Below are positions 1-37,903 of a DNA stretch of 37,903 nucleotides, piece by piece. The stretch is from Burkholderiaceae bacterium (GTDB lineage Bacteria; Pseudomonadota; Gammaproteobacteria; Burkholderiales; Burkholderiaceae_D): positions 1-37,903 of the forward strand of contig JAKOOD010000070.1 in NCBI GenBank assembly GCA_022701635.1, in the 5' to 3' direction. Under the pieces are notes generated by a model that saw nothing but the letters and a program-made list of their open reading frames with translations, ran no database searches and was not told the DNA's origin. Each line of letters starts with the position of its first letter. Positions within the stretch are counted from its first letter, which is position 1. A program made the translations under genes and the position numbers.

Positions 1-880
1 GCCCTGGTCAATATGTACGGCATTACCGAGACCTGCGTGCACGTCAGCTTCAAGCGCATCAGCAGTGCCGACATCGCCGCCAACTCGAACAATATCGGGG
101 TGCCGATTCCGACCACCAGCACGCTCATCCTGGGCCCCGACCGGCAGCTGTTGCCGGCCGGCGTGGCCGGCGAGATCTATGTCGGCGGCGCCGGCCTGGG
201 ACGCGGGTACCTCAACCGCGCCGAGCTCACCGCCGAGCGCTTCATTCCCCATCCATGGATGGCCGGCGAACGCCTGTACCGCTCGGGCGACCTCGGCAAG
301 CTGCTTGAAAACGGCGAAATGGCCCACCTTGGCCGTATCGACGACCAGGTGCAGCTGCGCGGCTTCCGCATCGAACTGGGCGAAATCGAGGTCCGCCTGG
401 CGGCTTGCCCGGGGGTGCACGAAGCGGTGGTGACGGTGCGCGAGGACGCGCCCGGCGACAAGCGCCTGGTGGCTTACCTGATCGCCGAGCCGGGCGCCGC
501 GCCGGTGGCGGCCGAGCTGCGCCAGCAGCTGTCGGCGGTACTCACCGAGTACATGGTGCCCTCCGCCTATGTCACGCTGGCGCGCTTCCCGCTGACCCCG
601 AACGGCAAGCTTGACCGCAAGGCATTGCCGGCGCCCGACCAGTCGGCGTTGGTAACGCAGCAATACGAAGCGCCCCAGGACGCCGTGGAGCAGGCCATTG
701 CCGCCATCTGGCAAGACCTGCTGGGCCTCGAGCGCGTGGGCCGCAACGACCAGTTCTTCGAGCTGGGCGGCCATTCGCTGACCGTCATCACCCTGATCGA
801 ACGCCTGCGCCAGCAGGGCCTGGTGCTCGAGGTCAAGAACGTGTTCACCGCGCCCACCCTGTCGGCCATGGCGCTGGCCG
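1..880 (+). other. NRPS-1 module 1 (partial A, T): predicted Thr
   Basis: The window enters at core motif A5 (NMYGITET). A6 (GEIYVGGAGLGRGYL), A7 (YRSGDL), A8 (RGFRIELGEIE) and A10 (NGKLDRKALP, bases 601-630) follow, then a T domain with its serine at 775-777. Only the last code positions are readable: 322=M, 330=V, 331=H, 517=K. These equal the end of the classical threonine code DFWNIGMVHK. The condensation domain and the first part of the A domain lie upstream, so Thr rests on four of ten positions. A Thr could supply the hydroxyl for later macrolactone formation, but that is inference. Confidence 0.7.
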
Positions 881-3800
881 TGAGCGCCGGCCAGGCCGCA
901 CCATCGTTCGCCGTCCCGCCCAACCGGATTCCGGCCGGCTGCCAGGCCATCACGGCGGACATGCTGCCGCTGGTCGAACTGGGCGACGATGCCATTGCGA
1001 CGCTGTGCGCCGGCGTGCCCCAGGGCGCAGCCAACATCGCCGACATCTATCCGCTCACCGCGCTGCAGGACGGTATCCTGTTCCACCACCTGTTCGAGGG
1101 CGAGGGCGACGCCTACCTGCTGCGCTCGATGCTGGCCTTCGACGATCGCGCCACCATGGACGCCTTCCTGTCGGCATTGCAGGAGGTGGTCGATCGCCAT
1201 GACATCCTGCGCAGCTCCGTGCACTGGCGCGGCCTGGCGCACGCGGTGCAGGTCGTCCAGCGCGACGCCCTGCTGCCGGTGCACCTGATCGCCGTGCCGG
1301 CCGGTGCCGATCCGATTGTCGAACTGCGCGCTCGTACCGATCCGCGCCGCATCCGCATGGACTTGAACGCCGCACCATTGCTGGCCGCGTATGCGGTCGA
1401 AGACCAGGTCAGCGGCAAGTGGACCATGGCGCTGCTGAACCATCACCTGGTATGCGACCACGTGACGCTCGAACTGATTATCGACGAAATCCGCCTGCTG
1501 CTGCGGGGCGAGGGCGTGCAGCTGGCGGCGCCGCAGCCATACCGGAATTTCGTGGCGCAGGGTCTTGCACAGCCTGCCAGCGAGCACCAGGCGTGGTTCC
1601 GCGCACAGCTGGCCGACATCGACGAGCCCACCGCGCCGTTCGGCATGCTGGACGTGCGTGGCGACGGCGGCGACGTCGCGGCCGTCGAACTGGCGCTGCC
1701 GGCGGAACTGGCGCTGGCGATCCGCGACGCCGCGCGCGCCCATGGTGTGACAGCCGCAGTCCTGTTCCACGTCGCCGTGGCCCAGGTGCTGGGCCAGTGT
1801 TCGGGCCGTGACGACGTCGTGTTCGGCACCGTCCTGTCGGGCCGCCTGCAGGGCTCGGACCACGCCGACCGGGTGCTGGGCATGTTCATCAACACCCTGC
1901 CGGTGCGCGTGTCGCTGGCGGCCGGCAGCGTCCATGACGTGGTCGCGCAGACCTACCAGCACCTGTCGCAATTGCTGGAACACGAACAGGCCCCGCTGGC
2001 GCTGGCGCAGCGCTGCAGCGGCGTGGCCAGCCCGCTTCCGCTGTTTTCGGCGCTGTTCAACTACCGCCATGGCAATGCGCTCGACAGCGCGGCCGGCGAC
2101 GCCGGCATGGGCCTGTCCGGCATCGCGCTGCTGGGCAGCGAAGAACGCACCAACTACCCGCTCACGATCTCGGTCGACGACCTGGGACAGGGCTTTGCCG
2201 TGCATGCGCTGTGCGCCGGCGGCATCGATCCGCGGCGCGTGGCACGCTACGTGCAGCAGGCCGTCGCCGCCATCGTGGAAGCACTGGGCCAATCCGCGCG
2301 GCCGCTGGCGCAACTGTCGGTGCTGCCGCCGGAGGAACTGGCGCTGCTGGTCGAAGGCTTCAACGCCGGCGTCAAGCCGTGCTCGCACGAGCTGCTGGTG
2401 CACGAGCTGTTCGCACGGCACGCCGCATCAACGCCGCACGCAGTGGCGCTGCGCCAGGGCGGCCGGTCGATCACCTACGGCGAGCTCAATCGCCGCGCCA
2501 ACCAGCTGGCGCATCACCTGATCGCGCATGGCGTCGAGCCGGGCGACCGGGTCGCCATCTGCGTGCCGCGCAGCGTCGAGATGGTGACCGGCCTGCTGGG
2601 CATTCTCAAGGCCGGGGCGGCGTATGTGCCGCTGGACGCCGGTTTCCCGGTCGAACGCCTGGCCTTCATGCTCGACGATACCGAGTGCCGTATGGTGCTC
2701 GCCACCGGCACCACCGCGGCGAACCTGCCGCTGGCCGGCCGCGCGCTGCTGTGCCTCGACCAGTGCGACGACTTACTGGCGCAGCGGCCCGACAGCGACC
2801 CCGCGCCGCTTGCTGGACCGGATGCGCTGGCCTACTGCACGTATACCTCGGGCTCGGCCGGCCAGCCGAAGGGCGTGGCCATTGCGCACAAGAGCATCCT
2901 CGGCTTCATGCTGGACGTGGACTACGTCGACTATGCAGACGATTGCGTGTCGCTGCAATACTCGTCGGCGTCGTGGGATGCGCTGACGCTGGAACTGTGG
3001 TCCATGTTGGCCCACGGCGGCTGCGTGGTGCTGTACCAGGGCGTCAATCCGCTGCCGCGCGATGTGGGCGCCGCCATTGCGGCCCATGGCGTGAACCTGA
3101 TGTGGATTACCTCCACCTTCTTCAATGCCATGGTCGACGACGACGTCGCGCTGCTGGCCGGCGTGCGCCAGCTGATGGTCGGCGGCGAACAGGTCTCGGC
3201 CGCGCATGTGCGCAAGCTGCAGCGCGCCTATCCGGACATGCGCCTGGTGAATGGCTACGGACCGTCCGAGTGCACGGTCTTTAGTAGCTGCTACGTGGTG
3301 CCGCCGGCACTGGCCGACGATGTCGAGCAGTTGCCGATCGGCCGTCCGGTGGGCGACCGCCGCATTTACCTGCTCGACCCCCAGGGCCGTCCCGTGCCGC
3401 TCGGCGTGGCCGGCGAACTGCACGTGGCAGGCGACGGCGTGGCGCTGGGCTACCTCAACCTGCCGGCCCTGACGGCGGAGCGCTTCATCGCCGATCCGTT
3501 CGGCGCACCGGGCAGCCGCTGCTACCGCAGTGGCGACCTGGCGCGCTGGCGCGCCGACGGCAACCTCGAGTTCGTCGGCCGCGTCGACCACCAGGTCAAG
3601 CTGCGCGGTTTCCGCATCGAGCTGGGCGAGATCGAGGCGCGCCTCAGGGCCTGCGCCGGCGTGAGCGAATCCGTGGTGATCGTGCGCGAGGACACGCCAG
3701 GCCACAAGCGCCTGGTGGCATATCTGCTGGCCGGCGCCGGCGAACCGCTGGAACCGGGCCGCCTGCGCGAGCAGATGGCCGGGCAGCTGCCGGCCTACAT

Positions 3801-6800
3801 GGTGCCGGCCGCCTTCATCGTCCTCGATGCCCTGCCGCGCACGGCCAACGGCAAGCTCGACCGTAAGGCACTGCCGCAGCCCGACCAGGCCGCGCTTGCC
3901 ATGCGCGACTACGAAGCGCCGCAGACGGCCGCCGAAGCCGCCATGGCCGCGATCTGGAAGGATCTGCTCGGAATGGAGCGGGTGGGCCGCCGCGACCAGT
4001 TCTTCGAGCTGGGCGGGCATTCCCTGCTGGTGGTGGCGCTGATCGAGCGCGTGCGCCAGCAGGGCATGAGCCTGGACGTGCGCACCATTTTCAGCGCACC
4101 GACGCTGTGCGCCATGGCCGCCGCGGCCAGCCAGGCACATGCGCCGGCTTTCGAGGTGCCCGCCAACCTGATCGCGCCCGGTTGCGACGCGATTACGCCG
4201 CAGATGCTGCCGCTGGTCGCGCTCATGCAAGGCGAGATCGACGCCATCGCGCGCAGCGTACCCCAGGGGATGGCGAATATCGCCGATATCTATCCGCTGG
4301 CGCCACTGCAGGAAGGTATCCTGTTCCATCACCTGCTGCGCGGCGAGCGCGACGCCTACCTGTTGCGCTCCGTATTTTCCTTCGATTCGCGCGAACGGCT
4401 GGAACGCTTTGCCTGCGCCATGCAGGCGGTCATCGACCGCCACGACATCCTGCGCACCGCGGTGCGCTGGGAAGGGCTGCGCCAGCCGGTGCAGGTGGTG
4501 CAGCGCGTCGCTCCGCTGCCGATGGAAACGCTGGTGCTGCCGGGGCAGGGCGACGCCCTGGAAGAGCTGCTCGAGCGCACCGACACGCGCCTGCTGCGCC
4601 TCGACTTGCGGCGCGCGCCGCTGCTGGCCTGCTACAGCGCGGCCGATCCGGGCTCGGACCGCTGGTTCCTGGCGCTGCTCAGCCACCACATGGTGTGCGA
4701 CCACGTGACGCTCGAATTCATCGTCGATGAAATCCGCGCTATCCTGGCTGCCGCCGACAGCGGGCAGCCGGCCGTGCTGGCACCGGTGCAGCCTTATCGC
4801 AATTTCATCGCCCATACCCACGCGGTGCCGGCCGAGGTGCATGAAGCATGGTTCCGGGCCCAGCTGGGCGACATCGACGAACCGACCGCGCCCTACGGCC
4901 TGCTCGACATCCAGGGCGACGCCGGCCCGGTCGACGAGGTGCGCGAAAACGTCGCGCCGGCGCTGGCCGCGCGCATCCGCGCCGTGGCGCGCGCCCATGG
5001 CATCAACGCCGCGGTGCTGTTCCACGTCGCAGTGGCCCAGGTACTGGGCCACTGCAGCGGACGCGAAGAAGTGGTGTTCGGCTCGGTGCTGTTGGGCCGA
5101 CTGCAAGGCTCGGAGAACGCCGACAAGGTACTCGGCATGTTCATCAACACGCTGCCGTTGCGCGTTTCGCTCACGGGCCGCAGCGTCAAGGAAGCGGTCA
5201 CCGAGACCTACCAGCGCATGGCCGAACTGCTGGCGCACGAACAGGCGCCGCTGGCGCTGGCGCAGCGCTGCAGTGGCGTGGCCGCGCCGCTGCCGCTGTT
5301 CAGCGCACTGCTGAACTACCGCCACAGCCAGGTCGCCACCGCCCACGACGGCGGCGACGATGCCGACCTGATCCTGGAAGGCATGCGCGTGCTGCGCACC
5401 GAAGACCTGACCAATTACCCGCTGACCATGCGCGTGGACGACATGCCGCACGGCTTCGCGGTGACGGCGCAATGCAGCCGCGGCATCGACGCGCAGCGTA
5501 TCGTGTCCTACCTGCAAACGGCGCTGCAGGGACTGGTCGGGGCGCTGGAAGCGGCGCCGGGCACCAGCATGGCGCAGCTGCCGGTGCTGCCTGCCGCCGA
5601 GCGTAGCCAGGTCATCGACGGCTTCAACGGCGCCGCCCTGGCGCACGGCGAGCAATGGCTGGCGCACCAGTGGTTCGAGCACCACGCCGCCGCCCATCCG
5701 GATGCGCCGGCGGTGGTCTACCAGGGCGCCGCGCTGACCTACTGCCAGCTGAACCGCCGCGCCAACCAGCTGGCCCATCATCTGCTGGCGCTGGGCATCA
5801 CGCCCGACGACCGCGTCGCCATCTGCCTCGAGCGGAGCCTGGACGTGGCGGTGGCCATGCTGGGCGTGATGAAGGCCGGCGGCGGTTACGTGCCGCTCGA
5901 CCCGTCCTATCCGGCCGAGCGCCTGGCCTACATGCTGGAAGACTGCGCCCCCGCTGCGTTGGTGAGCAGCGCGGACCAGCTCGACCTGCTGCCGTGGATC
6001 GCCGCCCCCGTGGTAGCGCTCGACGCCGACGCCAAAAAGATTGCGCGCCGCCCCGAGACCAATCCCGAGATGGCCGCCCTGCAGCCGCAGCACCTGGCGT
6101 ATGTGATCTATACCTCCGGTTCGACCGGGATGCCCAAGGGCGTCATGATCGAGCACCACAACCTGCGCGCCTCGACCCAGGCCCGCTGCGCGGTGTACCC
6201 GCCCGGCCAGCGCTTCCTGCTGCTGTCGTCGATCGGCTTCGACAGCTCGATCGCCGGCATCTTCGGCACCCTGGTGTCGCACGGCACGCTGCACATCGGC
6301 AGCCAGGCACTGGCCCAGGATCCGCGGCGGCTGGCCGGCTACATCGCGGACGAAGGCATCACCAGCCTGTTGTGCGTGCCCTCGCTGGCGCGCCTGATCC
6401 TCGACCATCTGCCCGCTCAAAATGCCTTGCGTGCGCTGATCGTGGCGGGCGAAGCCTGCCCGCCAACGCTGCGCGCGCAGGCGGCGGCACGGGTTCCGGC
6501 ACTGGCGCTGTACAACGAATACGGACCGACCGAGTGTACGGTCTGGGCCAGCCACTGGCTGTGCGGCGGCGATGAGCAGGGGCCAGTGCCGATCGGCCGT
6601 CCGATCGCGGGCACCCGCATCTACATCCTCGATGCCCATGGCCGGCCGGCCGGCGTGGGCGTGACCGGCGAGCTCCATATCGGCGGCGCCGGTGTGGCGC
6701 GCGGTTACCTGTTCCGTCCGGAACTGACCGCGGAACGCTTCGTGGCCGACCCGTTCGCGGGCGTGGCCGGTGCCCGCATGTACAAGAGCGGCGACCTAGG

Positions 6801-9800
6801 GCGCTGGCTGCCCGACGGCAGCATCGACTACCAGGGACGCAACGACTTCCAGGTCAAGATCCGGGGCTATCGTATCGAACTGGGCGAGATCGAGGCACGC
6901 CTGCTGGCCTGCCCGGGTGTGCGCGAAGCGGTGGTGCTGGCGCGCGAAGAGCAGGGCGGCGACAAGCGCCTGGCGGCCTATTTGCTGGTCGACCGCGACA
7001 GCGGCGTGGCGGTGGCGGCCATCCGCGAGCAGCTGGCCGCGGTCATGCCGTCCTACATGGTGCCGTCTGCGATCGTGACCATGGATGCCTTCCCGCTCAC
7101 GCCCAACGGCAAGCTGGACCGCAAGGCACTGCCGGCGCCCGACCAGGAATCGATGGCGGCGCGCCGCTATGCCGCACCCGAAGGCGCGCTGGAACACACC
7201 GTGGCCACGGTCTGGCAAGATCTGCTGGGCCTCGAGCGTGTCGGGCGCCACGACCATTTCTTCGAGCTGGGAGGCCACTCGCTGATGGTGGTCTCGCTGA
7301 TCGAACGCCTGCGCCAGCACGGCCTGACGGCCGACGTGCGCATGGTCTTCAATGCGCCCACGCTGGCCGAACTGGCCGAGGCGCTTGGCCACACACCGGC
7401 CGCCGCCTTTGCGGTGCCGGCCAACTTGATCCCCCATGGCTGCGCCGCCATCACCCCGGCCATGCTGCCGCTGGTCGCGCTCACCGACGAGGCCATCGCC
7501 GGCATCGTGGCCGCCGTGCCGGGTGGGGCCAGCAATGTGCAGGATATCTACCCGCTCGGCCCATTACAGGAAGGCATCCTTTTCCAGCACCTGCTGGAGA
7601 GCGAAGGCGATTCCTACTTGGCGCGCGTGGCCATCGAATTCGACAGCCGCACCAGGCTCGACGCCTTTCTCGGCGCGCTGCAGCAGGTGGTGGACCGCCA
7701 CGACATCCTGCGCACCGCCGTGTTCTGGGAAGGATTGCCGCAGCCGGTGCAGGTAGTGCTGCGCGCCGCGCCGCTGCCGGTGGCCGAGCTCACGCTGGAC
7801 GGCGCCGCCGCGCCGATGGCACAGCTCTTGGCGCAGGTCGACCCGTGCCAGGTGCGCCTGGACCTGAACCGGGCGCCGCTGATGTCGGCTACCATCGCCG
7901 CCGATCCGCACGCCGGCAAATGGCTGCTGGTGCTGCTCGACCATCACATGATCTGCGACCACGTGACGATGGAATTCATCCTGTCCGAAATCCAGCTGAT
8001 CCTGCAGTGCCGGGATGCCGAGCTGCCGCCGGCGCTACCTTACCGCAATTTCATCGCGCTGACCCACTCGGTCAGCTTGGACCAGCACGAAGCCTGGTTC
8101 CGCGAGCAGCTGGGCGATATCGAAGAACCGACCGCGCCATTCGGCCTGTCCGGACCCGATCACGACGAGAGCCGGGTCGGCGCCTGCCAGCAGCACCTGG
8201 CGCAGGCGCTGGCGCAGCGCCTGCGTGCCGCCGCACGCCGGCACCGCACCACGCTGGCGGCGCTGTTCCACGTGGCCTGGGCCCAGGTCCTGGCCACCCA
8301 TACGGGGCGCGACGACGTGGTGTTCGGCACCGTGCTCTCGGGCCGCCTGCAAGGTTCGGAAGGCGCCGACCAGGTGCTGGGCATGTTCATCAACACGCTG
8401 CCGATCCGGATTTCCTTCAGCCAGCGCAGCGTGGCCCAGGTGCTGGAAGAGTCGTACCAGCGCCTGACCACGCTGCTCGGCCACGAGCAGGCGCCGCTGG
8501 CGCTGGCGCAGCGCGCCAGCGGCCTGGCGGCCGGCGTGCCCCTGCTCAACTCCCTGTTGAACTATCGCCACAGCCAGCTGGTGCACACCCCGGACGGCGA
8601 GGTCGACGCGCTCATGGAATGGGAGGGCATGCGCGTGCTGGCAGCCGAGGAACGCGGCAATTACCCGTGCGGGCTGACCGTGGACGACTTGGGCGAGGAC
8701 TTCGCCCTGACCGTGCAGTGCTACCGCGAACATGGGCCTCAGCGGGTATTCGGCTACCTCGAACACGCCATCGTGACGCTGCTCGACGCGCTCGAAAACG
8801 ATCCGCAGCAGCCTTTCATGGACCTGGCGCGCCTGCCGGACGGCGAGTGCCGCCGGCTGTTCGACGAATTCAATGCACCGCCGCGTCCGTTCGCCGGCCC
8901 CACCCTGGTGCACCAGCTGTTCGAAGCCCAGGCGGCACGCCAGCCCGATGCGCCTGCGCTCATCTTCGAAGACCGGCAACTCAGCTATGGCGACCTGAAC
9001 CGGCGTGCCAACGGCATTGCCCACCGCTTGCTGGCGCTGGGCGTGCAGCCGGACGACCGTGTGGCGATCTGCGCCGAGCGCAGCCTGGAGATGGTGATCG
9101 GCCTGCTCGGTATCCTGAAAGCCGGCGCTGCCTACGTACCGCTCGATCCGGCCTATCCGGTCGAGCGCCTGGCCTGGATGCTGGCCGACTGCGCGCCAGC
9201 GGCGGTGCTGGCGCAGGCGGCCCTGCAGGCGACGGTGTGCGACCTGCTGGCACCGGCCGCCGGCGACCGCAGCGTGCATGCGCAGCCGGCCTTGCTGCTG
9301 CTCGACGACGGCGACGTCCACGGCAGCGCCGACAATCCGCAGCTGCCCGCGCTGACCGCGCAGCACCTGGCCTACGTGATCTACACGTCCGGCTCGACCG
9401 GCATGCCCAAGGGCGTGGCGAACGAACATGCCGGCGTGGTCAACCGCCTGCTGTGGGCGCGCGACGAATACCGGATCGACGCCAGTGAGTGCCTGCTGCA
9501 GAAAACCCCGTTCAGCTTCGACGTGTCGGTGTGGGAATTCTTCCTGCCGCTGCTGGCCGGGGCCCGGCTGGTCATCGCCCGACCGAACGGCCACCAGGAC
9601 CCGCACTACCTGGCCCAGCTCATCGCCGGCGCCGGCGTCACCACGGCCCACTTCGTGCCGTCGATGCTGCAGGCCTTCCTCGACAGCGATCCGGCGCCAC
9701 ATTGCCGCGGCCTGCGCCGCGTGCTGTGCAGCGGCGAAGCGTTGCCCCATGCGCTGCAAATGCGCTTCCATGCGGCCTTGCCCGAGGTCGAGCTGCACAA

Positions 9801-10791
9801 CCTGTATGGCCCGACCGAGGCGGCAGTCGACGTCACCGCATGGCATTGCAGGCCCGATGGACGCGCGGGCGTCGTTCCCATCGGCAAGCCGATCGCCAAC
9901 GTGCGGATTCACATCCTCGACCGCTACCTGCAGCCGGTGCCGCTCGGCGTCCCCGGTGAAATCCATATCGGCGGGGTGGCCGTCGCGCGCGGTTACCTGA
10001 ACCGTCCGGCACTGAACGCCGAGCGCTTCATCTGTGATCCGTTCAGCGCCGTACCAGGCGCGCGCCTGTACAAGACCGGCGACCTCGGGCGCTGGCTCGA
10101 AGACGGTGCCATCGACTACCTGGGGCGCAACGACTTCCAGGTCAAGATCCGGGGCTTCCGCATCGAGCTGGGCGAGGTGGAAGCGCGCCTTGTCGAGTGC
10201 GAGGGCGTGCGCGAAGCGCTGGTGCTGGCGCGCGCCGACGCCGACGGCGGCGACCAACGGCTGGTGGCGTATCTGGTGGCTGGCGCGCAGCTGGCGGTGG
10301 CGGCCGTGCGCACGCAGCTGGCGCAGTGCCTGCCGGCCCACATGGTGCCCAGCGCCTTCGTGGTGGTCGACGCGTTCCCGCTCTCGCCGAACGGGAAGAT
10401 CGACCGCAAGGCGCTGCCGGCGCCCGGCAGCGAAGCGGTGGTGAGCCGCCGTTACGAGGCGCCGATCGGCGCCATCGAGAGCGCGCTGGCAGCCATCTGG
10501 CAGGAGCTGCTCGGCATCGAGCGGGTGGGGCGTCACGACCACTTTTTCGAGCTCGGCGGCCATTCGCTGCTGGCCATGCGCCTGCTGATCCGCATTCGCG
10601 AGCAATTCGGAATGGAGGTCGCGCTGGCCAGGGTGTTCCAGACACCAACGATCGCCGCGCTGGGCGAACTGCTGGCGGCGGCGCAGCTGGCGCACTTCCA
10701 TACCGACGAGATTGCGCTGGCCGCGGCCGGCATGGATGACCTGACTGAAGAACAGCTGCTGGCGCTACTGGCCGAGGAAAACCACCAGTGA
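1..10791 (+). CDS. Non-ribosomal peptide synthetase NRPS-1 (3' part, 5' end outside window)
   Basis: Open from base 1 (frame 1) to a TGA at 10789-10791, giving 3596 residues with no start in view. Domain order is A(partial)-T, C-A-T, C-A-T, C-A-T. Each T domain has the phosphopantetheine motif LGGHSL, with attachment serines at residues 259, 1341, 2427 and 3522 (counting from base 1). All A domains end in NGK(L/I)DRKALP, which holds the A10 lysine. All three internal condensation domains are the variant type with HHxxxDH in place of HHxxxDG and a dual condensation/epimerization-like N-terminal motif. There is no thioesterase. The chain ends in an acidic tail, LTEEQLLALLAEE, that resembles a C-terminal docking element, so the peptide should pass to the NRPS encoded 57 bp downstream. 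Codes read by hand suggest Thr, a Val-like residue, an unassigned residue and Ser. Confidence 0.97.
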   Translation, partial: ALVNMYGITETCVHVSFKRISSADIAANSNNIGVPIPTTSTLILGPDRQLLPAGVAGEIYVGGAGLGRGYLNRAELTAERFIPHPWMAGERLYRSGDLGKLLENGEMAHLGRIDDQVQLRGFRIELGEIEVRLAACPGVHEAVVTVREDAPGDKRLVAYLIAEPGAAPVAAELRQQLSAVLTEYMVPSAYVTLARFPLTPNGKLDRKALPAPDQSALVTQQYEAPQDAVEQAIAAIWQDLLGLERVGRNDQFFELGGHSLTVITLIERLRQQGLVLEVKNVFTAPTLSAMALAVSAGQAAPSFAVPPNRIPAGCQAITADMLPLVELGDDAIATLCAGVPQGAANIADIYPLTALQDGILFHHLFEGEGDAYLLRSMLAFDDRATMDAFLSALQEVVDRHDILRSSVHWRGLAHAVQVVQRDALLPVHLIAVPAGADPIVELRARTDPRRIRMDLNAAPLLAAYAVEDQVSGKWTMALLNHHLVCDHVTLELIIDEIRLLLRGEGVQLAAPQPYRNFVAQGLAQPASEHQAWFRAQLADIDEPTAPFGMLDVRGDGGDVAAVELALPAELALAIRDAARAHGVTAAVLFHVAVAQVLGQCSGRDDVVFGTVLSGRLQGSDHADRVLGMFINTLPVRVSLAAGSVHDVVAQTYQHLSQLLEHEQAPLALAQRCSGVASPLPLFSALFNYRHGNALDSAAGDAGMGLSGIALLGSEERTNYPLTISVDDLGQGFAVHALCAGGIDPRRVARYVQQAVAAIVEALGQSARPLAQLSVLPPEELALLVEGFNAGVKPCSHELLVHELFARHAASTPHAVALRQGGRSITYGELNRRANQLAHHLIAHGVEPGDRVAICVPRSVEMVTGLLGILKAGAAYVPLDAGFPVERLAFMLDDTECRMVLATGTTAANLPLAGRALLCLDQCDDLLAQRPDSDPAPLAGPDALAYCTYTSGSAGQPKGVAIAHKSILGFMLDVDYVDYADDCVSLQYSSASWDALTLELWSMLAHGGCVVLYQGVNPLPRDVGAAIAAHGVNLMWITSTFFNAMVDDDVALLAGVRQLMVGGEQVSAAHVRKLQRAYPDMRLVNGYGPSECTVFSSCYVVPPALADDVEQLPIGRPVGDRRIYLLDPQGRPVPLGVAGELHVAGDGVALGYLNLPALTAERFIADPFGAPGSRCYRSGDLARWRADGNLEFVGRVDHQVKLRGFRIELGEIEARLRACAGVSESVVIVREDTPGHKRLVAYLLAGAGEPLEPGRLREQMAGQLPAYMVPAAFIVLDALPRTANGKLDRKALPQPDQAALAMRDYEAPQTAAEAAMAAIWKDLLGMERVGRRDQFFELGGHSLLVVALIERVRQQGMSLDVRTIFSAPTLCAMAAAASQAHAPAFEVPANLIAPGCDAITPQMLPLVALMQGEIDAIARSVPQGMANIADIYPLAPLQEGILFHHLLRGERDAYLLRSVFSFDSRERLERFACAMQAVIDRHDILRTAVRWEGLRQPVQVVQRVAPLPMETLVLPGQGDALEELLERTDTRLLRLDLRRAPLLACYSAADPGSDRWFLALLSHHMVCDHVTLEFIVDEIRAILAAADSGQPAVLAPVQPYRNFIAHTHAVPAEVHEAWFRAQLGDIDEPTAPYGLLDIQGDAGPVDEVRENVAPALAARIRAVARAHGINAAVLFHVAVAQVLGHCSGREEVVFGSVLLGRLQGSENADKVLGMFINTLPLRVSLTGRSVKEAVTETYQRMAELLAHEQAPLALAQRCSGVAAPLPLFSALLNYRHSQVATAHDGGDDADLILEGMRVLRTEDLTNYPLTMRVDDMPHGFAVTAQCSRGIDAQRIVSYLQTALQGLVGALEAAPGTSMAQLPVLPAAERSQVIDGFNGAALAHGEQWLAHQWFEHHAAAHPDAPAVVYQGAALTYCQLNRRANQLAHHLLALGITPDDRVAICLERSLDVAVAMLGVMKAGGGYVPLDPSYPAERLAYMLEDCAPAALVSSADQLDLLPWIAAPVVALDADAKKIARRPETNPEMAALQPQHLAYVIYTSGSTGMPKGVMIEHHNLRASTQARCAVYPPGQRFLLLSSIGFDSSIAGIFGTLVSHGTLHIGSQALAQDPRRLAGYIADEGITSLLCVPSLARLILDHLPAQNALRALIVAGEACPPTLRAQAAARVPALALYNEYGPTECTVWASHWLCGGDEQGPVPIGRPIAGTRIYILDAHGRPAGVGVTGELHIGGAGVARGYLFRPELTAERFVADPFAGVAGARMYKSGDLGRWLPDGSIDYQGRNDFQVKIRGYRIELGEIEARLLACPGVREAVVLAREEQGGDKRLAAYLLVDRDSGVAVAAIREQLAAVMPSYMVPSAIVTMDAFPLTPNGKLDRKALPAPDQESMAARRYAAPEGALEHTVATVWQDLLGLERVGRHDHFFELGGHSLMVVSLIERLRQHGLTADVRMVFNAPTLAELAEALGHTPAAAFAVPANLIPHGCAAITPAMLPLVALTDEAIAGIVAAVPGGASNVQDIYPLGPLQEGILFQHLLESEGDSYLARVAIEFDSRTRLDAFLGALQQVVDRHDILRTAVFWEGLPQPVQVVLRAAPLPVAELTLDGAAAPMAQLLAQVDPCQVRLDLNRAPLMSATIAADPHAGKWLLVLLDHHMICDHVTMEFILSEIQLILQCRDAELPPALPYRNFIALTHSVSLDQHEAWFREQLGDIEEPTAPFGLSGPDHDESRVGACQQHLAQALAQRLRAAARRHRTTLAALFHVAWAQVLATHTGRDDVVFGTVLSGRLQGSEGADQVLGMFINTLPIRISFSQRSVAQVLEESYQRLTTLLGHEQAPLALAQRASGLAAGVPLLNSLLNYRHSQLVHTPDGEVDALMEWEGMRVLAAEERGNYPCGLTVDDLGEDFALTVQCYREHGPQRVFGYLEHAIVTLLDALENDPQQPFMDLARLPDGECRRLFDEFNAPPRPFAGPTLVHQLFEAQAARQPDAPALIFEDRQLSYGDLNRRANGIAHRLLALGVQPDDRVAICAERSLEMVIGLLGILKAGAAYVPLDPAYPVERLAWMLADCAPAAVLAQAALQATVCDLLAPAAGDRSVHAQPALLLLDDGDVHGSADNPQLPALTAQHLAYVIYTSGSTGMPKGVANEHAGVVNRLLWARDEYRIDASECLLQKTPFSFDVSVWEFFLPLLAGARLVIARPNGHQDPHYLAQLIAGAGVTTAHFVPSMLQAFLDSDPAPHCRGLRRVLCSGEALPHALQMRFHAALPEVELHNLYGPTEAAVDVTAWHCRPDGRAGVVPIGKPIANVRIHILDRYLQPVPLGVPGEIHIGGVAVARGYLNRPALNAERFICDPFSAVPGARLYKTGDLGRWLEDGAIDYLGRNDFQVKIRGFRIELGEVEARLVECEGVREALVLARADADGGDQRLVAYLVAGAQLAVAAVRTQLAQCLPAHMVPSAFVVVDAFPLSPNGKIDRKALPAPGSEAVVSRRYEAPIGAIESALAAIWQELLGIERVGRHDHFFELGGHSLLAMRLLIRIREQFGMEVALARVFQTPTIAALGELLAAAQLAHFHTDEIALAAAGMDDLTEEQLLALLAEENHQ
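901..4110 (+). other. NRPS-1 module 2 (C/E-type C, A, T): Val-like residue
   Basis: The condensation domain starts near DIYPLTALQDGILFHHL and carries HHLFEGEGD at 1084-1110. That fits the HH[I/L]xxxxGD motif described for dual condensation/epimerization domains. Its catalytic motif is HHLVCDH (1441-1461), with His replacing the usual Gly. The A domain has the core motif YTSGSAGQPKG (2842-2874), with Ala where Thr or Ser is usual. Its hand-read code is D-A-L-W-M-G-G-V-F-K, which resembles valine-type codes (e.g. DAFWIGGTFK). The T-domain serine is at 4021-4023. If the C domain epimerizes, it acts on the upstream Thr. The substrate call is low confidence. Confidence 0.8.
4141..7380 (+). other. 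NRPS-1 module 3 (C/E-type C, A, T): substrate unassigned
   Basis: The condensation domain is of the variant type. Its N-terminal motif reads HHLLRGERD (4327-4353), where Arg replaces the Gly of HH[I/L]xxxxGD. Its catalytic motif is HHMVCDH (4684-4704). The A domain has the standard YTSGSTGMPKG (6109-6141) and the substrate loop FDSSIAGIF. Its code is D-S-A-L-I-A-E-V-W-K. From memory this is nearest to the bacitracin histidine code DSELTAEVCK and the tyrosine code DGTITAEVAK, but it matches neither well enough to assign. The T-domain serine is at 7279-7281. Confidence 0.78.
7405..10680 (+). other. NRPS-1 module 4 (C/E-type C, A, T): predicted Ser
   Basis: The condensation domain has QHLLESEGD (7585-7611), the dual-domain motif with its first His replaced by Gln. 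The catalytic motif is HHMICDH (7942-7962). The A domain has YTSGSTGMPKG (9382-9414) and SFDVSVWEF. Its code D-V-W-H-L-S-L-V-D-K matches the classical serine code DVWHLSLIDK in nine of ten positions, the exception being a conservative Ile to Val change. The T-domain serine is at 10564-10566. The next condensation domain (start of NRPS-2) is the ordinary L-type, so this Ser is predicted to stay L. Confidence 0.88.
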
Positions 10792-10848
10792 GCGCCCGGG
10801 ACGAAGTGCCCGCAGCACCGACGACATTGCACCTATTGGAGAGTAGTG
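10792..10848 (+). other. Short intergenic spacer between the two NRPS genes
   Basis: 57 bp between the NRPS-1 stop and the NRPS-2 ATG. It holds a clear ribosome binding site near its 3' end. I see no terminator-like hairpin followed by a T-run, so co-transcription is expected. Confidence 0.7.
10838..10843 (+). promoter_or_regulatory. Ribosome binding site of NRPS-2
   Basis: GGAGAG lies 5 nt before the ATG at 10849. A GTG in the same frame at 10846 is also possible, but it would leave only 2 nt to the Shine-Dalgarno, so the ATG is preferred. Confidence 0.75.
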
Positions 10849-31758
<20,910 letters not shown>

Positions 31759-31838: not shown

Positions 31839-34313
31839 ATGTTTGCACGACTGACGACAATCACGAAAGGCGCCCCGCTGCTGACGCGGCTGGTGGTGGT
31901 GCTGCTGCTGCCGCTGCTGATCGGCGGCGCGTTCCTGTTGACCCGGCTGCGCGACAGCTTGCCGGCACAGGGTACGCTGCAGCTCACCGAAGGTGTTTCG
32001 GCCCCGGTGACGGTGCGGCGCGACATCCATGGCGTGCCGCAGATCGAGGCCAGCGCCGACAATGATGCCTACTACGCCATCGGCTACGTACACGCCCAGG
32101 ATCGCCTGTGGCAACTGGAGATGCAGCGCCGCGTGGCCCAGGGCCGCCTGAGCGAAGTGTTCGGCAAGGACAGCGTGCAGCGCGACGTCTGGTTTCGCAC
32201 GCTGGACCTGTACGGCGCCGCGCACTCGGCCTGGCCGGCGCTGAGCAAGCAAGCGCAGGCGTCGCTGACGGCCTACACCGCCGGCGTGAATGCGGGCAGG
32301 GCGTCGCTGGCGAGCCTGCCGCCCGAATTCACCATGTTCGGCCTGCAGCCAGAGCCATGGACGGTGTACGATTCGCTGGCCTGGATCAAGATGTTCGCCC
32401 TGAACCTGGGCGGCAATTTCAGCCGCGAGATGGGCCGCCACCTGGCCAGCCAGAACCTGGATCCGGCCAGTATCGCGGTGCTTTTCCCGGACAATAGCGC
32501 GGGCAACATGATGCTCGCCGATCGCGGCAGCCTAAACGGAAACCTGGGCGGCAACGACGACGGCAGACACCGCGACGCCGCCGGCATGGCGCGCATGCTG
32601 GCGTTCCAGAAGCAGGAACTGAACGCCGGCCTTGGCCTGGGCGCGCGCGGCGTGGGCAGCAACGCCTGGGCGGTGGCGGGCACGCACAGCGCCGACGGCG
32701 GCACGCTGCTGGCCAACGATCCGCACCTGAGCCTGCAAATGCCGTCGCTGTGGTACGTGGTCAACGCCAGGGGCAAGACGCTCGACGTCGGCGGCATGAG
32801 CCTGGTCGGCCTCCCGGTGGTCATTTTCGGCCACAACCAGCACATCGCGTGGGGCGGCACCAACATGATGGCCGACGCTCAGGACCTGTACCTGGAGCGC
32901 ACCGATCCCGCCAACGCCGGCCACTATGCCAGCAACGCCGGCTGGCGCGACTTTGCCACCCGCAGCGAAACGATCAAGGTGCGCGCCGACTTCCCAGCCT
33001 TCCTGCACCCGCGCTACGAGCCGCTGACCGTGCAGGTGCGCGCCAGCCGCCATGGCCCGATCGTCTCGGACATGTTCAAGATGTTCGACCAGCCGGTGGC
33101 GCTGCGCTGGACCGCGCTGGACCCGGGCGACACCAGTTACGAGGCATTTTTCCGCCTCAACCAGGCCGCCGACTGGGCCGGCTTCAAGCAGGCCCTGGCG
33201 TTGCACGTGGCGCCGGCCCTGAACCTGGTGTACGCCGACCGCAAGGGCAACATCGGCTACCTGGGCGCCGGCCGAGTGCCGCTGCGCGCCCAGGGTAACG
33301 GCACCCTGCCGGCCCCCGGCTGGGATGACAGCCACGCCTGGAACGGCTTCATCCCGGCCGACCGGATGCCCCAGGTGTACAACCCGCCATCGGGCTTTAT
33401 CGTCAGCGCCAACAACAGCGTCGTCGGACCAGGCTACCCGTACTTCATTTCGCAGGACTGGGCGTCGCCGACACGCGCCACACGCATCGAGCAGATGCTG
33501 CGCGAAAAAGTGGCGGGCGGCAGGCGCCTGACGCTGGCCGACATGCAGCGCATGCAGGCCGATACGCTGGACCTGGACGCGCGCGCCATGCTGGCAGCGC
33601 TGGTGCAGGTGGCGCCGGCCAACGACGCACAGCGCAAGGCGCTGAACTGGCTCAAGCAGTGGAACGGCGACATGGGCAGCGCCAGCCAGGCCGCCGCCAT
33701 CTACCAGGTCTGGATGCGGCACCTGCGCCGGCAGCTCTTCGACGCCCGGTTCAAGGGCTACTGGAACAAGCCGGAGCAGGGCACCATGCTGCGCGGCCTG
33801 TCCGAGGAGATCCAGGTCGACACCCTGCGCGCCATCGTTACCGGCCAGCAGGCCGGTTGGTGCGGCACTGCCGGCAAGGAAAGCTGCCAGGACGTGCTGC
33901 GCGCCTCGCTGCAGGCGGCCATCGACGAGATCTATGAACTCAAGGGTGACCGCTCGATGGCGTCGTGGTCCTGGGGCGGCCTGCAGACGGCGCTGTACGG
34001 GCACACTCCGTTCAGCCAGGTCAAGCCCCTGGACCGCTTCTTCGAGCGCAGCACGCCCAGCGGCGGATCGGAAAACACGGTCAACGTGGCCGCCTCCACG
34101 TTCGAGGCCAAGAAAGGTTACCGCCAGCACCTCGGCGCCGGATTCCGACAGGTGATCGACATGCAGCCAACCGCGGTGGTCCACACCTACATGAATTCGA
34201 CCGGCCAGTCGGGCAACCTGCTCAGCGCCCACTACGACGACATGGTGGCGCCGTTCTCCAGGGTCGAATTCTTCCAACTCGCAGCACCCGTCCATTCCGG
34301 AGCGCCCAAATGA
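31839..34313 (+). CDS. Periplasmic penicillin acylase/PvdQ-family N-terminal-nucleophile acylase
   Basis: 824 residues, the usual length for penicillin/AHL acylase precursors. Residues about 14-35 form one hydrophobic segment after a basic start, consistent with a membrane anchor or signal. An alpha-chain region follows (HGVPQIEA, HAQDRLWQLEMQRR), then the autocleavage site Gly273-Ser274 in GVGSNAWAV. Ser274 would be the beta-chain nucleophile. His296 falls at beta-chain position 23, as in PvdQ and AHL acylases; penicillin G acylase has Gln there. The conserved Asn pair in VSANNS is at 525-526. The family hydrolyses amide-linked acyl groups. The gene follows the NRPS by 80 bp and its TGA overlaps the exporter's ATG, so removal of a fatty acyl cap from the exported peptide is likely. 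Self-protection or AHL hydrolysis are alternatives. Confidence 0.93.
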   Translation: MFARLTTITKGAPLLTRLVVVLLLPLLIGGAFLLTRLRDSLPAQGTLQLTEGVSAPVTVRRDIHGVPQIEASADNDAYYAIGYVHAQDRLWQLEMQRRVAQGRLSEVFGKDSVQRDVWFRTLDLYGAAHSAWPALSKQAQASLTAYTAGVNAGRASLASLPPEFTMFGLQPEPWTVYDSLAWIKMFALNLGGNFSREMGRHLASQNLDPASIAVLFPDNSAGNMMLADRGSLNGNLGGNDDGRHRDAAGMARMLAFQKQELNAGLGLGARGVGSNAWAVAGTHSADGGTLLANDPHLSLQMPSLWYVVNARGKTLDVGGMSLVGLPVVIFGHNQHIAWGGTNMMADAQDLYLERTDPANAGHYASNAGWRDFATRSETIKVRADFPAFLHPRYEPLTVQVRASRHGPIVSDMFKMFDQPVALRWTALDPGDTSYEAFFRLNQAADWAGFKQALALHVAPALNLVYADRKGNIGYLGAGRVPLRAQGNGTLPAPGWDDSHAWNGFIPADRMPQVYNPPSGFIVSANNSVVGPGYPYFISQDWASPTRATRIEQMLREKVAGGRRLTLADMQRMQADTLDLDARAMLAALVQVAPANDAQRKALNWLKQWNGDMGSASQAAAIYQVWMRHLRRQLFDARFKGYWNKPEQGTMLRGLSEEIQVDTLRAIVTGQQAGWCGTAGKESCQDVLRASLQAAIDEIYELKGDRSMASWSWGGLQTALYGHTPFSQVKPLDRFFERSTPSGGSENTVNVAASTFEAKKGYRQHLGAGFRQVIDMQPTAVVHTYMNSTGQSGNLLSAHYDDMVAPFSRVEFFQLAAPVHSGAPK

Positions 34314-36031
34314 GCCTGTTTTCCATGTTGTCCAAGAAAGCCCCGAACCGGGTGTTCGCCTCCATACTACTGGGCGTGTCGTCGGGCGCCGCTTACGCGC
34401 TGCTCATTCCGCTGATGATCAACGCGCTGCGCCCGGCCGAACCGCGCTTTGCCACCGTCGACAGCGGCCCGGTCGAGGTGCTGTGGCTGCAAGTGGCCAA
34501 CGCGCCGGTGGCGGCGCTGTTCGCGGCCATCTGCCTGTTCATCGTGGTGGCGCGCACCTTGTCCCAGGTGGCGCTGTCGCGGGTGTCGATGAAGCTGGCG
34601 TCCGACCTGCGCATCCAGCTGTATGACCGGATCGCGCGGGCCGCGCTGCCATCGCTGGAAAGAATCGGCGTGCCCAAGCTCGTTTCGGCAATGACGGCCG
34701 ACCTGCCCACGGTGGTGGCCGGCACGCAGCTGCTGCCGGACTTGCTGGTGGCCGGCGTGACCGTAGCCGGCATGCTCGGCTTCCTGCTGTACCTAGACAT
34801 TTCGATCTTCTGGTTCGTGCTCGGCGCCATCGTCTTCGGCATCGTCACCTACCAGCTGCCGATGATCCTGGGCCAGCGTTACTTCATCCTCGGCGGGAAA
34901 AGCCAGGACGCGCTGCAGGAAGCCATCCAGGGCCTGGTGCGCGGCGTGAAGGAACTCAAGCTCAACGACGAGAAACGCGCCGCGTTTTTCGACAGTATGC
35001 TGCTGCGCTACGAAAACGACCTGTTCGAGGCCCAGCAGGGCGCCAACACGGTGATTCGGGTATCGGCCAACTACGGCGAAATGCTGAGCTTTTTCATCAT
35101 CGGCGCGGTCACCTTCATCTTCGTCAACTACCACGCGATCCGTACCGAGGAGCTGCTGGGCGCCATCATGGTGCTGCTGTATATCACCGGTCCGGTGTCG
35201 GGCATGCTGCGCCTGCTGCCGGAAGTCGCGCGCTCCAAGGTTGCACTGCGCCGCGTCAGCGAACTGAGCGAGCGCCTGTCGGACGAGGACATCGGCCCGG
35301 CCGCGGTCACCCGGCTGGAATGGGACACGATCCGCTTCGACCAGGTGTGCTACCAGCACCCGTCGGGCGACGGCGGGAGCGGCGAGGCGGGGGGCTTCCG
35401 GATCGGTCCGATCGACCTCGAGTTCGCCAAAGGCGAAATCACCATGGTCGTGGGAGGCAACGGCTCCGGCAAGTCGACCCTGTGCAAGCTGCTCACGCTG
35501 CACTATCGGGCATCGGGCGGCACGCTGTATTTCGGCGACACAGCCATCGGCAGCGACACCATCGGCACCGCACGCCAGAGCGTCTCGGCCATTTATTCGG
35601 ACTATTACCTGTTCGACCGCCTACTCGGCGTGAAGGTCGACGCGGCCGAGGTGCAGCACTTCCTGAAAGCGCTGCGGCTCGACGGCAAGGTGACTTACGA
35701 GGATGGCAAGTTCTCGACCTTGGCGCTGTCGGACGGCCAGCGCCGCCGCATGGCGCTGCTGGCCGCCTTCATCGAGGACAAGGAACTGTACCTATTCGAC
35801 GAATGGGCCGCCGACCAGGACCCGGTGTTCAAGGAGGTGTTCTACCACGAGGTGCTGCCGGCCCTGAAGGCGCGCGGCAAGGCGGTGGTGGCGATCACCC
35901 ACGACGACCGCTATTTCGACATCGCCGACAAGGTGATCGTGATGGCCGACGGCGTGGTGACCCGGGTCGACCTGCCGCTCGCGCGCGCAGCGGCCAGCGT
36001 CAACCAGTCGATGTTCATGCGCCGCGCATAA
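34310..36031 (+). CDS. Cyclic-peptide-type ABC exporter, PvdE/SyrD-like (membrane domain fused to ATPase)
   Basis: 573 residues from an ATG that overlaps the acylase TGA (ATGA at 34310-34313). An in-frame upstream extension exists but would run deep into the acylase gene, so the overlapping start is preferred. The N-terminal half is hydrophobic with several membrane spans (about residues 15-36, 62-82, 145-185, 245-290). The ATPase half has Walker A GGNGSGKST (382-390), signature LSDGQ (473-477), Walker B ending LFDEWAADQDP (Asp497, Glu498) and switch His531 in THDDRYF. The DEWAADQDP block and the overall layout fit the cyclic peptide export family that includes SyrD and PvdE. It is expected to carry the NRPS product from cytoplasm to periplasm, where the upstream-encoded acylase would act. 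Confidence 0.95.
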   Translation: MSLFSMLSKKAPNRVFASILLGVSSGAAYALLIPLMINALRPAEPRFATVDSGPVEVLWLQVANAPVAALFAAICLFIVVARTLSQVALSRVSMKLASDLRIQLYDRIARAALPSLERIGVPKLVSAMTADLPTVVAGTQLLPDLLVAGVTVAGMLGFLLYLDISIFWFVLGAIVFGIVTYQLPMILGQRYFILGGKSQDALQEAIQGLVRGVKELKLNDEKRAAFFDSMLLRYENDLFEAQQGANTVIRVSANYGEMLSFFIIGAVTFIFVNYHAIRTEELLGAIMVLLYITGPVSGMLRLLPEVARSKVALRRVSELSERLSDEDIGPAAVTRLEWDTIRFDQVCYQHPSGDGGSGEAGGFRIGPIDLEFAKGEITMVVGGNGSGKSTLCKLLTLHYRASGGTLYFGDTAIGSDTIGTARQSVSAIYSDYYLFDRLLGVKVDAAEVQHFLKALRLDGKVTYEDGKFSTLALSDGQRRRMALLAAFIEDKELYLFDEWAADQDPVFKEVFYHEVLPALKARGKAVVAITHDDRYFDIADKVIVMADGVVTRVDLPLARAAASVNQSMFMRRA

Positions 36032-36053
36032 GCGGCTTTCCACTGATGTTTTT

Positions 36054-36060
36054 GAGGAGA
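36054..36060 (+). promoter_or_regulatory. Ribosome binding site of the NTF2-like gene
   Basis: GAGGAGA, 6 nt before ATG 36067. It is a strong Shine-Dalgarno that decides this start over an in-frame ATG at 36046, which would place the site inside the gene. Confidence 0.8.
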
Positions 36061-36066
36061 ACCACC

Positions 36067-36417
36067 ATGGCCAATGAAAAACTTGTGCGCAAGATGTTCA
36101 GCGCGATCGACGCCTGCCGCTTCGAGGAGCTCGAGGAACTGATGCATCCGGAAGCGGTGTACGAACGCCCCGGTTACCAGACCTTTGCCGGGATCGGCCA
36201 GATCGTCGACTTTTACCGGAACCAGCGCGTGATCCGCGACGGCTGCCACGCGATCCTTGATTTCGTGGACGACGCCGGCAGCGCGATGTCGTGCGGTCAC
36301 TTTTTGGGGCGCAAGCGGGACGATTCCGCGGTCGACATCCACTACGCCGAAATCTACCGCTTCCGCGACGGCAGGATCGCCTACCGCCGCAGTTATTTCT
36401 ACACCCCGGCGGTATGA
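36067..36417 (+). CDS. Small NTF2/SnoaL-like protein, function unknown
   Basis: 116 residues with no signal peptide or membrane span, so it is probably cytoplasmic. The pattern fits the NTF2-like (SnoaL/ketosteroid isomerase) fold. It has a helical start (KLVRKMFSAIDACRFEELEELMH), the 'HPEAVYERPG' strand, a G-I-G-Q-I-V-D-F-Y helix, and C-terminal strands ending DIHYAEIYRFRDGRIAYRRSYF. Members of this fold include isomerases, cyclases and hydrolases as well as non-catalytic binding proteins, so the reaction cannot be named. It starts 35 bp after the exporter gene, and its TGA overlaps the ATG of the adaptor gene, so it belongs to the same transcript. A tailoring or carrier role for the peptide is only a guess. 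Confidence 0.85.
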   Translation: MANEKLVRKMFSAIDACRFEELEELMHPEAVYERPGYQTFAGIGQIVDFYRNQRVIRDGCHAILDFVDDAGSAMSCGHFLGRKRDDSAVDIHYAEIYRFRDGRIAYRRSYFYTPAV

Positions 36418-37724
36418 CGATGAACGACGCCACTAACGCACGGGTGTCGCCGCTGCCCTATTCCTACAGCGGCGCCGCGATGGACCGCGTGCTGGCGCGT
36501 GACCCGCGCCGCCGCTGGATCAAGGCCGGTGCCGGCGCGGCCGCTGTGGCTGCCCTGGCGGCGGCCGTCTGGCTGATGCTGCCGCGCGGCTTTGCGGTCG
36601 CCGCAAGCGAACTCGATATCGCTACCGTCGCCGATGGCGTGTTCCAGGACGCGCTGGCGGTGCGCAGCACCGTGGTGCCGCTGTCGTCGGTGTTCCTGGA
36701 CGCCACTGAGGGGGGGCGGGTGGAAGAAGTGCTGGCGCGCGACGGCGCCACGGTAAAGCGGGGCGAACTGCTGTTCCGCCTGTCGAACCCGCAGCGCGAC
36801 CAGGAAGCACTGGCGCGCTCGGCCGATGTGGCCCAGCAGCTTGCCAACCTGTCGACCATGCGCGCGGCGCTGGCCGCTTCTAAGGCCGGCTACCAGCGCG
36901 ACCTGGCCGGCTTCGAGTATGCGGTCGAGCGGGCCGACATCGAACACACGCGGCAGGCCGAATTGGCCCGGCGCGGCTTCGTGTCGGCAGCAGTGCTCGA
37001 CGAGTCGACCGCCAAGCTGTCCCAGCAAAAGCGGCTACTGGCGCAGACCCGGGCCGACGCGACGGCCGAGTTCCGGATCCGGGACCAGTCGATCAAGGAA
37101 TTCGACGCCGCCATCAACGGCCTGAACCAAGGCCTGCGCCTGGTGCGGGCCAGCGCCGAGCAGCTGGCGGTGCGGGCCCCGGTCGACGGCCGCCTGACCG
37201 GCTTTTCGCTGCAGGTGGGCGAATCGGTCAAGACCACCGACCGCGTAGGCCGTATCGACAGCGCCGGCCAGTTCAAGCTGTCGGCCTCGGTCGACGAGTA
37301 CTACCTGAACCGTATGGCGACCGGGCTCAAGGGAAAGGTCGAGCAAGGCGGGCAGGCCTATGCGCTGACCGTGTCGCAGATCAACCCGCAGCTCAAGGAC
37401 GGCCGCTTCACGATGTTGCTGCAGTTCGATGGCGCCGCCCCGGCCGGCCTGCAGCCGGGCAAGAGCCTTGACACCCAGGTCACGCTGGGCCAGAGCGCGC
37501 GCGCGCTGCTGCTGCAGGACGGTGCCTTTTACGCCGACAGCGGCGGCGCCTGGGTGTTCGTGCTCGACGCCGACGGTGGCCACGCCACGCGCCGCAGCGT
37601 CAAGCTGGGCCGGCGCGCGGCAGGCAAAGTCGAAGTCCTGGGCGGCCTTGCCGCGGGCGAACGGGTGGTCGTCTCCGGCTACCGCCGCTTTGGTGAGGTG
37701 GCCAGCCTGCGCCTGAGCGAATGA
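36414..37724 (+). CDS. MacA/HlyD-type periplasmic adaptor (membrane fusion protein)
   Basis: 436 residues from ATG 36414, which overlaps the previous stop (ATGA). An alternative ATG at 36420 would drop two residues. No Shine-Dalgarno is seen, which suggests translational coupling. A single membrane anchor spans about residues 37-57. The two lipoyl half-motifs (GGRVEEVLARDGATVKRGE and VRAPVDGRLTGFSLQVGE) flank an alpha-helical hairpin rich in Ala, Gln, Arg and Glu (about 120-240). Beta-barrel and membrane-proximal regions follow (GERVVVSGYRRF near the end). With the downstream MacB-like ATPase it would form the inner-membrane and periplasmic part of a tripartite pump, comparable to PvdR-PvdT. 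The outer-membrane partner is not in the window. Confidence 0.92.
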   Translation: MTMNDATNARVSPLPYSYSGAAMDRVLARDPRRRWIKAGAGAAAVAALAAAVWLMLPRGFAVAASELDIATVADGVFQDALAVRSTVVPLSSVFLDATEGGRVEEVLARDGATVKRGELLFRLSNPQRDQEALARSADVAQQLANLSTMRAALAASKAGYQRDLAGFEYAVERADIEHTRQAELARRGFVSAAVLDESTAKLSQQKRLLAQTRADATAEFRIRDQSIKEFDAAINGLNQGLRLVRASAEQLAVRAPVDGRLTGFSLQVGESVKTTDRVGRIDSAGQFKLSASVDEYYLNRMATGLKGKVEQGGQAYALTVSQINPQLKDGRFTMLLQFDGAAPAGLQPGKSLDTQVTLGQSARALLLQDGAFYADSGGAWVFVLDADGGHATRRSVKLGRRAAGKVEVLGGLAAGERVVVSGYRRFGEVASLRLSE

Positions 37725-37762: not shown

Positions 37763-37903
37763 ATGTTACAACTACAAAATGTCAGCAAACTGCACCGCGT
37801 CGGCGACCTCGAGACCGCGGCCCTCAACCAAATCAGCCTGCATATCGAGCAGGGCGAGTACGTGGCCATTACCGGCCCCTCGGGCTGCGGCAAGTCGACC
37901 CTG
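37763..37903 (+). CDS. MacB/LolD-type ABC transporter ATP-binding protein (5' part, cut by window end)
   Basis: 47 codons are visible. It starts MLQLQNVSKLHRVGDLET and reaches Walker A GPSGCGKSTL at the window edge. The start and the 'GEYVAITGPSGCGKST' context are typical of MacB/LolD-family ATPases. Position directly after a MacA-type adaptor supports a MacB-like partner. Whether the ATPase is fused to a permease (true MacB) or separate cannot be seen here. Confidence 0.9.
   Translation, partial: MLQLQNVSKLHRVGDLETAALNQISLHIEQGEYVAITGPSGCGKSTL

Follow-up and report, generated by a model that had tools for sequence, protein, structure and literature searches.

The window, meaning the whole stretch of 37,903 nucleotides analysed here, is the entire contig C43 of a fragmented genome (724 contigs, 87.8% complete). 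It carries on the plus strand, in this order, the 3' part of one NRPS gene (NRPS-A), a second NRPS gene (NRPS-B), an acylase, an ABC exporter, a SnoaL-like protein, a periplasmic adaptor and the start of an ABC ATPase. The NRPS-A portion (1..10791) is an open frame that begins inside the A domain of module 2 and holds the motifs of modules 2-5; its 5' part lies on contig C535. NRPS-B (10846..31758) contains six modules and two terminal thioesterase domains; Pfam recognises C-A-T in its first module and Thioesterase twice at its end. The module and domain order of both proteins was assigned by motif.

The acylase gene (31839..34313) encodes an Ntn-hydrolase of 824 aa that is hydrophobic near its N-terminus (about residues 14-32). 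The exporter gene (34310..36031) encodes a protein of 573 aa with Walker A and signature motifs, which scores 373.5 bits against TIGR01194, “cyclic peptide export ABC transporter” (cut-off 286.2). The initial annotation placed the acylase 80 bp after the synthetase and described a 4-bp overlap (ATGA) with the exporter gene; both statements are exact, the NRPS-B stop being at 31758.

Three further frames follow. The SnoaL-like small protein (36067..36417; PF12680, 51.6 bits, cut-off 27) sits between the exporter and the adaptor, and a similar frame occupies the equivalent position in genome G157. The adaptor (36420..37724) matches TIGR01730 with 129.8 bits (cut-off 94.9) and HlyD_3, and its score on the DarC model is below the cut-off; by position it is probably MacA/PvdR-like. 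The ABC ATPase (37763..37903; PF00005, 34.1 bits, cut-off 25) is cut by the contig end and would by position be of the MacB type. The G+C content is about 0.68-0.71 across most of the NRPS and acylase sequence and drops to 0.65-0.66 over the exporter, the SnoaL-like gene and the adaptor (positions 34001-37000 of the window).

The acylase and its nearest relatives

The acylase belongs to Pfam PF01804, Penicil_amidase (716.1 bits, cut-off 21.3); a comparison with PHROGs returned no family. The initial annotation called the protein PvdQ-like, which as a statement of kinship has to be withdrawn. On the PvdQ equivalog model NF051460 of NCBIfam it scores 85.5 bits against a cut-off of 950, and three other acylases of the clade described below score 64-73 bits. 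The nearest solved relative by sequence is a D-succinylase (E 7.6e-75; the best PvdQ entry has 3.7e-17). The fold of an AlphaFold model built from 55 rows (pLDDT 91.5) compares best with the D-succinylase 7eby (Z 43.4, rmsd 2.5, 712 residues, 29% identity), then with the AHL acylase MacQ (Z 35.6 over 623 residues), and with PvdQ at a Z of at most 24.5 over about 481 residues, a value lowered by the form of the PvdQ entries, which are beta chains or a permuted chain. The comparison with PvdQ is best confined to the logic of the pathway and given up as a statement of kinship.

The residues named in the initial annotation are all present: Ser274 (beta-1; codon at 32658..32660), His296 (beta-23) and Asn525/526. 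Ser274 aligns with residue 1 of the solved beta chains and is the predicted N-terminal nucleophile; Asn525, which also aligns with these chains, is the putative oxyanion-hole residue. In an alignment of 55 rows (35 clade acylases and 20 others), His296 and Asn525 occur in 55/55 and Ser274 in 54/55, with Thr in one; in a clade acylase from G197 (L172:1447-3906) Thr replaces Ser at the nucleophile position. The same residues had been taken as features of long-acyl-chain acylases. This does not hold, since the 20 unlinked acylases (those outside the clade) carry them as well, and they do not single out such enzymes. The same alignment draws attention to residues 342-345 (Asn-Met-Met-Ala; 32862..32873): Met-Met-Ala at 343-345 is found in most clade rows and is mostly replaced by other residues in the unlinked acylases, which makes it a possible specificity mark.

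The hydrophobic stretch near the N-terminus suggests a membrane anchor. It is present in 41/42 clade acylases, the exception being a truncated copy, and equally in 37/37 unlinked ones. The genome of the window encodes a second acylase on contig C531, nearest to cephalosporin acylase, and a further acylase fragment on contig C233.

Acylase-exporter loci in three families

Searches with the acylase protein or with an 8-row alignment (whose eight rows score high by construction) covered the window's own family (195 and 392 genomes), its class (369) and its phylum (398); the same queries were run in the families of G196 (247 genomes) and G197 (147 genomes). The 42 high-scoring loci, picked by score and then inspected, were read with their surroundings. 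They comprise nine from the own family, 14 from the family of G196, which includes records named Xanthomonadaceae and Lysobacteraceae, and 19 from the family of G197, which includes a Thalassomonas record. The families of G196 and G197 contributed every match at E <= 1e-200, 33 in all. Of the 41 genomes with a match in the own family, 9 were assigned to the clade and the other 32, with lower scores, were set aside; these lower-scoring acylases have no exporter where their flanks were read. A tree of 79 acylase rows (73 differing; a quick tree without a mixture model) places the 42 clade members on one side of a single branch with SH-aLRT 95.

An exporter homologue lies directly downstream of the acylase in 42/42 loci. 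NRPS domains are found in the stretch read at 39/42; the other three loci are on contigs of 10, 10 and 3.3 kb. The 4-bp overlap of the two genes recurs in 16/42, and the other 26 loci show one overlap of 1 bp, 24 gaps of 1 to 200 bp and one frameshifted acylase. Among 15 control neighbourhoods of other acylases, an adjacent exporter was found in 0/15 and NRPS in 0/15, one of them (L036) having a weak ABC match 7 kb away. The contrast of 42/42 with 0/15 makes the arrangement more than chance. Viewed from the exporter side, nine other exporters of this type in the own family (31-37% identity) have no acylase within 1.5 kb, and five of these nine have NRPS-like matches within that distance.

Several loci deserve mention by themselves. 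The frameshifted acylase copy (G983, L185:16167-19998) still has the exporter gene next to it, and the acylase of G1415 is reported with two in-frame stops. Outside the clade, the acylase L098 of G446 (28% identity) is immediately preceded by such an exporter, so that the order is reversed (L265:16851-20000 into L266), with NRPS sequence about 13 kb upstream; its neighbours look by eye sigma-factor-, FecR- and ExbD-like, which is our presumption. With so distant an acylase and a reversed order, the exporter-acylase pairing may have arisen more than once. For the acylase L083 of G304, also outside the clade, the ABC-ATPase match close to its end is weak (47 bits) and comes from a MacB-type ATPase on the opposite strand.

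A CmlA-type diiron beta-hydroxylase gene occurs near the pair in 10/42 loci at a threshold of 150 bits, including L067:9862-11475 (PF18456), G157, G138, G1296, G1252, G1273, G1376, G1464 and G1443. It is not in the window, whose contig ends before the place that the gene has in G157.

The start of the assembly line

The missing 5' end of the cluster was found on contig C535 of the same genome by a search with the ligase-like protein of G157, whose cluster is syntenic and complete and has an identical order (ligase, ACP, first C domain, NRPSs). On C535 a ligase-like gene, whose product is 79% identical to its G157 counterpart, is followed by an ACP frame that carries a GVDSF site. The next frame, an NRPS, opens with a condensation domain and is broken off by the contig end inside module 2. 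Aligned to the intact G157 protein, this frame stops next to the point where the window sets in, which makes ligase, ACP, NRPS-A and NRPS-B a single line of 5 + 6 modules, as in G157. Lipoinitiation upstream had been set beforehand as a check on the proposal, and the result is positive: the ligase-like protein, the ACP and the first C domain of a lipid-initiated NRPS stand together on C535, likewise in G157.

The G157 ligase-like protein has an AMP-binding fold. The curated FAAL cut-offs of NCBIfam are reached by neither it nor the C535 protein (the best models give 363.4 of 775 and 356.4 of 600 bits), so the ligase function is presumed from similarity and from the adjoining ACP. The first C domain of the window's line has its best solved match in Txo2/Txo1, not in RzmA. 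Further upstream of the ligase, C535 (L065:9252-11943) carries LuxI (PF00765), LuxR (PF03472, PF00196), a DUF4902 gene (PF16245) and a second similar small frame. A set of the LuxI/LuxR/DUF4902 type is also present in G157, and G018 has LuxR and DUF4902 past its NRPS genes.

Residue preferences of the line, read by eye from specificity codes, are weak; they suggest Thr at position 2, Ser at 5, a Val-like residue at 7, Phe at 9, and Ala at both 10 and 11. The code of residue 5 differs between the window's line and G157. We recognised no siderophore residue among these.

A siderophore role was tested and set aside. PF13434 has a match in 21 of the 32 genomes searched and is also found in 12/14 control genomes. 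Six of the matches are strong (174 to 413 bits), and each of these is either on a different contig from the acylase or over 100 kb away from it. A weak partial match of 51 bits is located some 3 kb from the G1518 locus, and the window's own genome (88% complete) gave no match. A TonB-receptor query taken from the G138 locus has a match near 4/42 loci, G138 included, so that some loci may still serve iron uptake.

A recognised lipid-loading start was found in 32/42 loci, 16 with a ligase and 16 with an RzmA-type starter C domain. The ligase lies within the stretch read in 14 of the former; the other two belong to the window's line (C535) and to G196 (contig C20), where the ligase again precedes an ACP and a C domain. 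In the 16 other loci the N-terminal C domain groups with the RzmA starter C domain (support 100 for the set of 17), and in the tree of 94 C domains no internal one falls inside this set; the tree is a quick one without a mixture model, and RzmA is at most about 25% identical to any of its rows. Among the queries that retrieved the first C domains were three such domains; the first C domain of the window's line is not a row. The RzmA starter C domain is a studied lipoinitiator, though the wild type loads a short acyl group (PMC7804268). Two more loci have a ligase-type first C domain with no ligase in view. The remaining 8/42 have no assigned lipid-loading type, and six of these are on short or cut contigs.

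Interpretation and comparison with known systems

From the gene order, the family membership, the lipid-loading genes, the conserved pair, the catalytic residues and the hydrophobic N-terminus, we presume, and regard as fairly probable, that the NRPS yields a lipopeptide, which is exported and then loses its acyl chain in the periplasm to the membrane-anchored acylase. A fatty acid activated by the ligase-like protein would ride on the ACP until the first C domain couples it to residue 1; the NRPS product would be an 11-residue lipopeptide freed by the tandem thioesterases. The ABC exporter would carry it across the inner membrane, the acylase, on the periplasmic face, would use its Ntn serine to hydrolyse off the fatty acyl chain, and the efflux pump encoded next to the pair would carry the free peptide outward. 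The substrate, the periplasmic site, the order of the steps and the free peptide as the end product are all conditional on this reconstruction. The main argument is that the acylase-exporter pair is the constant partner of two unrelated lipid-loading devices, which points to an acyl amide as the substrate. The initial annotation had proposed an acyl-on/acyl-off route beside an NRPS that is not pyoverdine-like. At the genomic level this idea has strong support from the lipid-loading genes on C535 and from the conserved pair; the PvdQ kinship and the residue marks offered for it did not survive. Several points speak against our reading: the D-succinylase is named for a small acyl group, two loci show no ligase in view and eight have no assigned lipid-loading type, the ligase-like protein stays under the FAAL cut-offs, unlinked acylases share the hydrophobic N-terminus, and LuxI and LuxR in the cluster allow a signal-related role.

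The initial annotation took the lipopeptide to be a prodrug. The acylase might instead serve the opposite purpose, the lipopeptide being the active compound and the enzyme disarming it at the producer's own membrane for self-protection or turnover. Glidonin gives a precedent: GdnD, encoded outside the cluster, deacylates glidonins, the acylated forms inhibit the producer and the free ones do not, and its authors liken GdnD to Tem25 of the telomycin cluster (PMC10587159). Against this, the acylase is tied to the exporter in every locus of the clade, often by overlapping genes, which in our opinion fits a step undergone by every exported molecule better than an occasional safeguard. We consider disarming unlikely, although it is the most probable of the alternatives.

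We give much less weight to two other functions. Cleavage of a different bond, for instance one that holds a small acyl group or an amide in a side chain of the peptide, is suggested by the D-succinylase being the nearest solved relative in both sequence and fold; yet the acylase accompanies both the ligase and the RzmA-type starter C domain, and what these unrelated devices share is a lipid-derived N-acyl amide. We find such cleavage very improbable. It is also conceivable, and if anything slightly less probable still, that the enzyme degrades acyl-homoserine lactones made by the cluster's LuxI. LuxI and LuxR genes are upstream of the ligase on C535 and in G157, LuxI directly precedes the acylase in G018, the modelled fold is fairly close to that of MacQ, and PvdQ itself does both jobs (PMC6206403). 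LuxI is, however, near only 3/42 loci (many of the stretches being short), as against 42/42 for the exporter and 39/42 for NRPS.

Returning to export followed by deacylation, it is tempting to generalise. We would put at slightly better than even the chances that the pair of acylase and exporter is portable, separate from the PvdQ family and a second way of tagging, exporting and untagging a product, used for many unrelated nonribosomal peptides in at least three Gram-negative families and with two lipid-loading devices; the fatty acid would then be a transient tag for export or membrane retention, and many predicted “lipopeptide” clusters would yield free peptides. A non-PvdQ acylase with an exporter, serving different peptides, makes the idea of an export tag testable outside the field of iron metabolism. 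Product prediction would change as well: where a lipid-loading start meets this pair, free peptides should be searched for as well as lipopeptides. A literature search of open-licence papers gave, among the matches listed, no paper on this acylase-exporter pair.

The solitary acylases (e.g., L008-L032, 34-42% identity) are similar in Pfam family, catalytic residues and hydrophobic N-terminus; unlike the clade, they are without exporter or NRPS in the 15 neighbourhoods and fall on the opposite side of the tree branch. The nearest solved structure, the D-succinylase of Cupriavidus sp. P4-10-C (7eby), differs from our reading in that its name refers to succinyl. In the pyoverdine pathway, most likely, PvdE exports acylated ferribactin, PvdQ deacylates it in the periplasm, and secretion follows through PvdRT-OpmQ among other routes (PMC6206403). 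The cluster resembles this system (PvdL, PvdE, PvdQ, PvdRT-OpmQ), which likewise combines a lipid-initiated NRPS, a cyclic-peptide-type exporter, an Ntn acylase and an efflux pump, with the steps following the same logic. It differs in that its acylase is no PvdQ by the curated model, the acylase and the exporter form one overlapping gene pair, the cluster has a separate ligase gene and ACP, and its own genome (88% complete) has no full-length ornithine N-hydroxylase match. With glidonin and GdnD, and with telomycin and Tem25 as cited in the glidonin report, it shares an acylase removing a fatty acid from a non-siderophore lipopeptide, here predicted from the genes; unlike in our case, the GdnD gene is about 1 Mb from its cluster and its role is read as detoxification (PMC10587159). 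Pyoverdine, telomycin and glidonin are thus precedents, and the cluster would work like PvdE and PvdQ but with an acylase of another subfamily.
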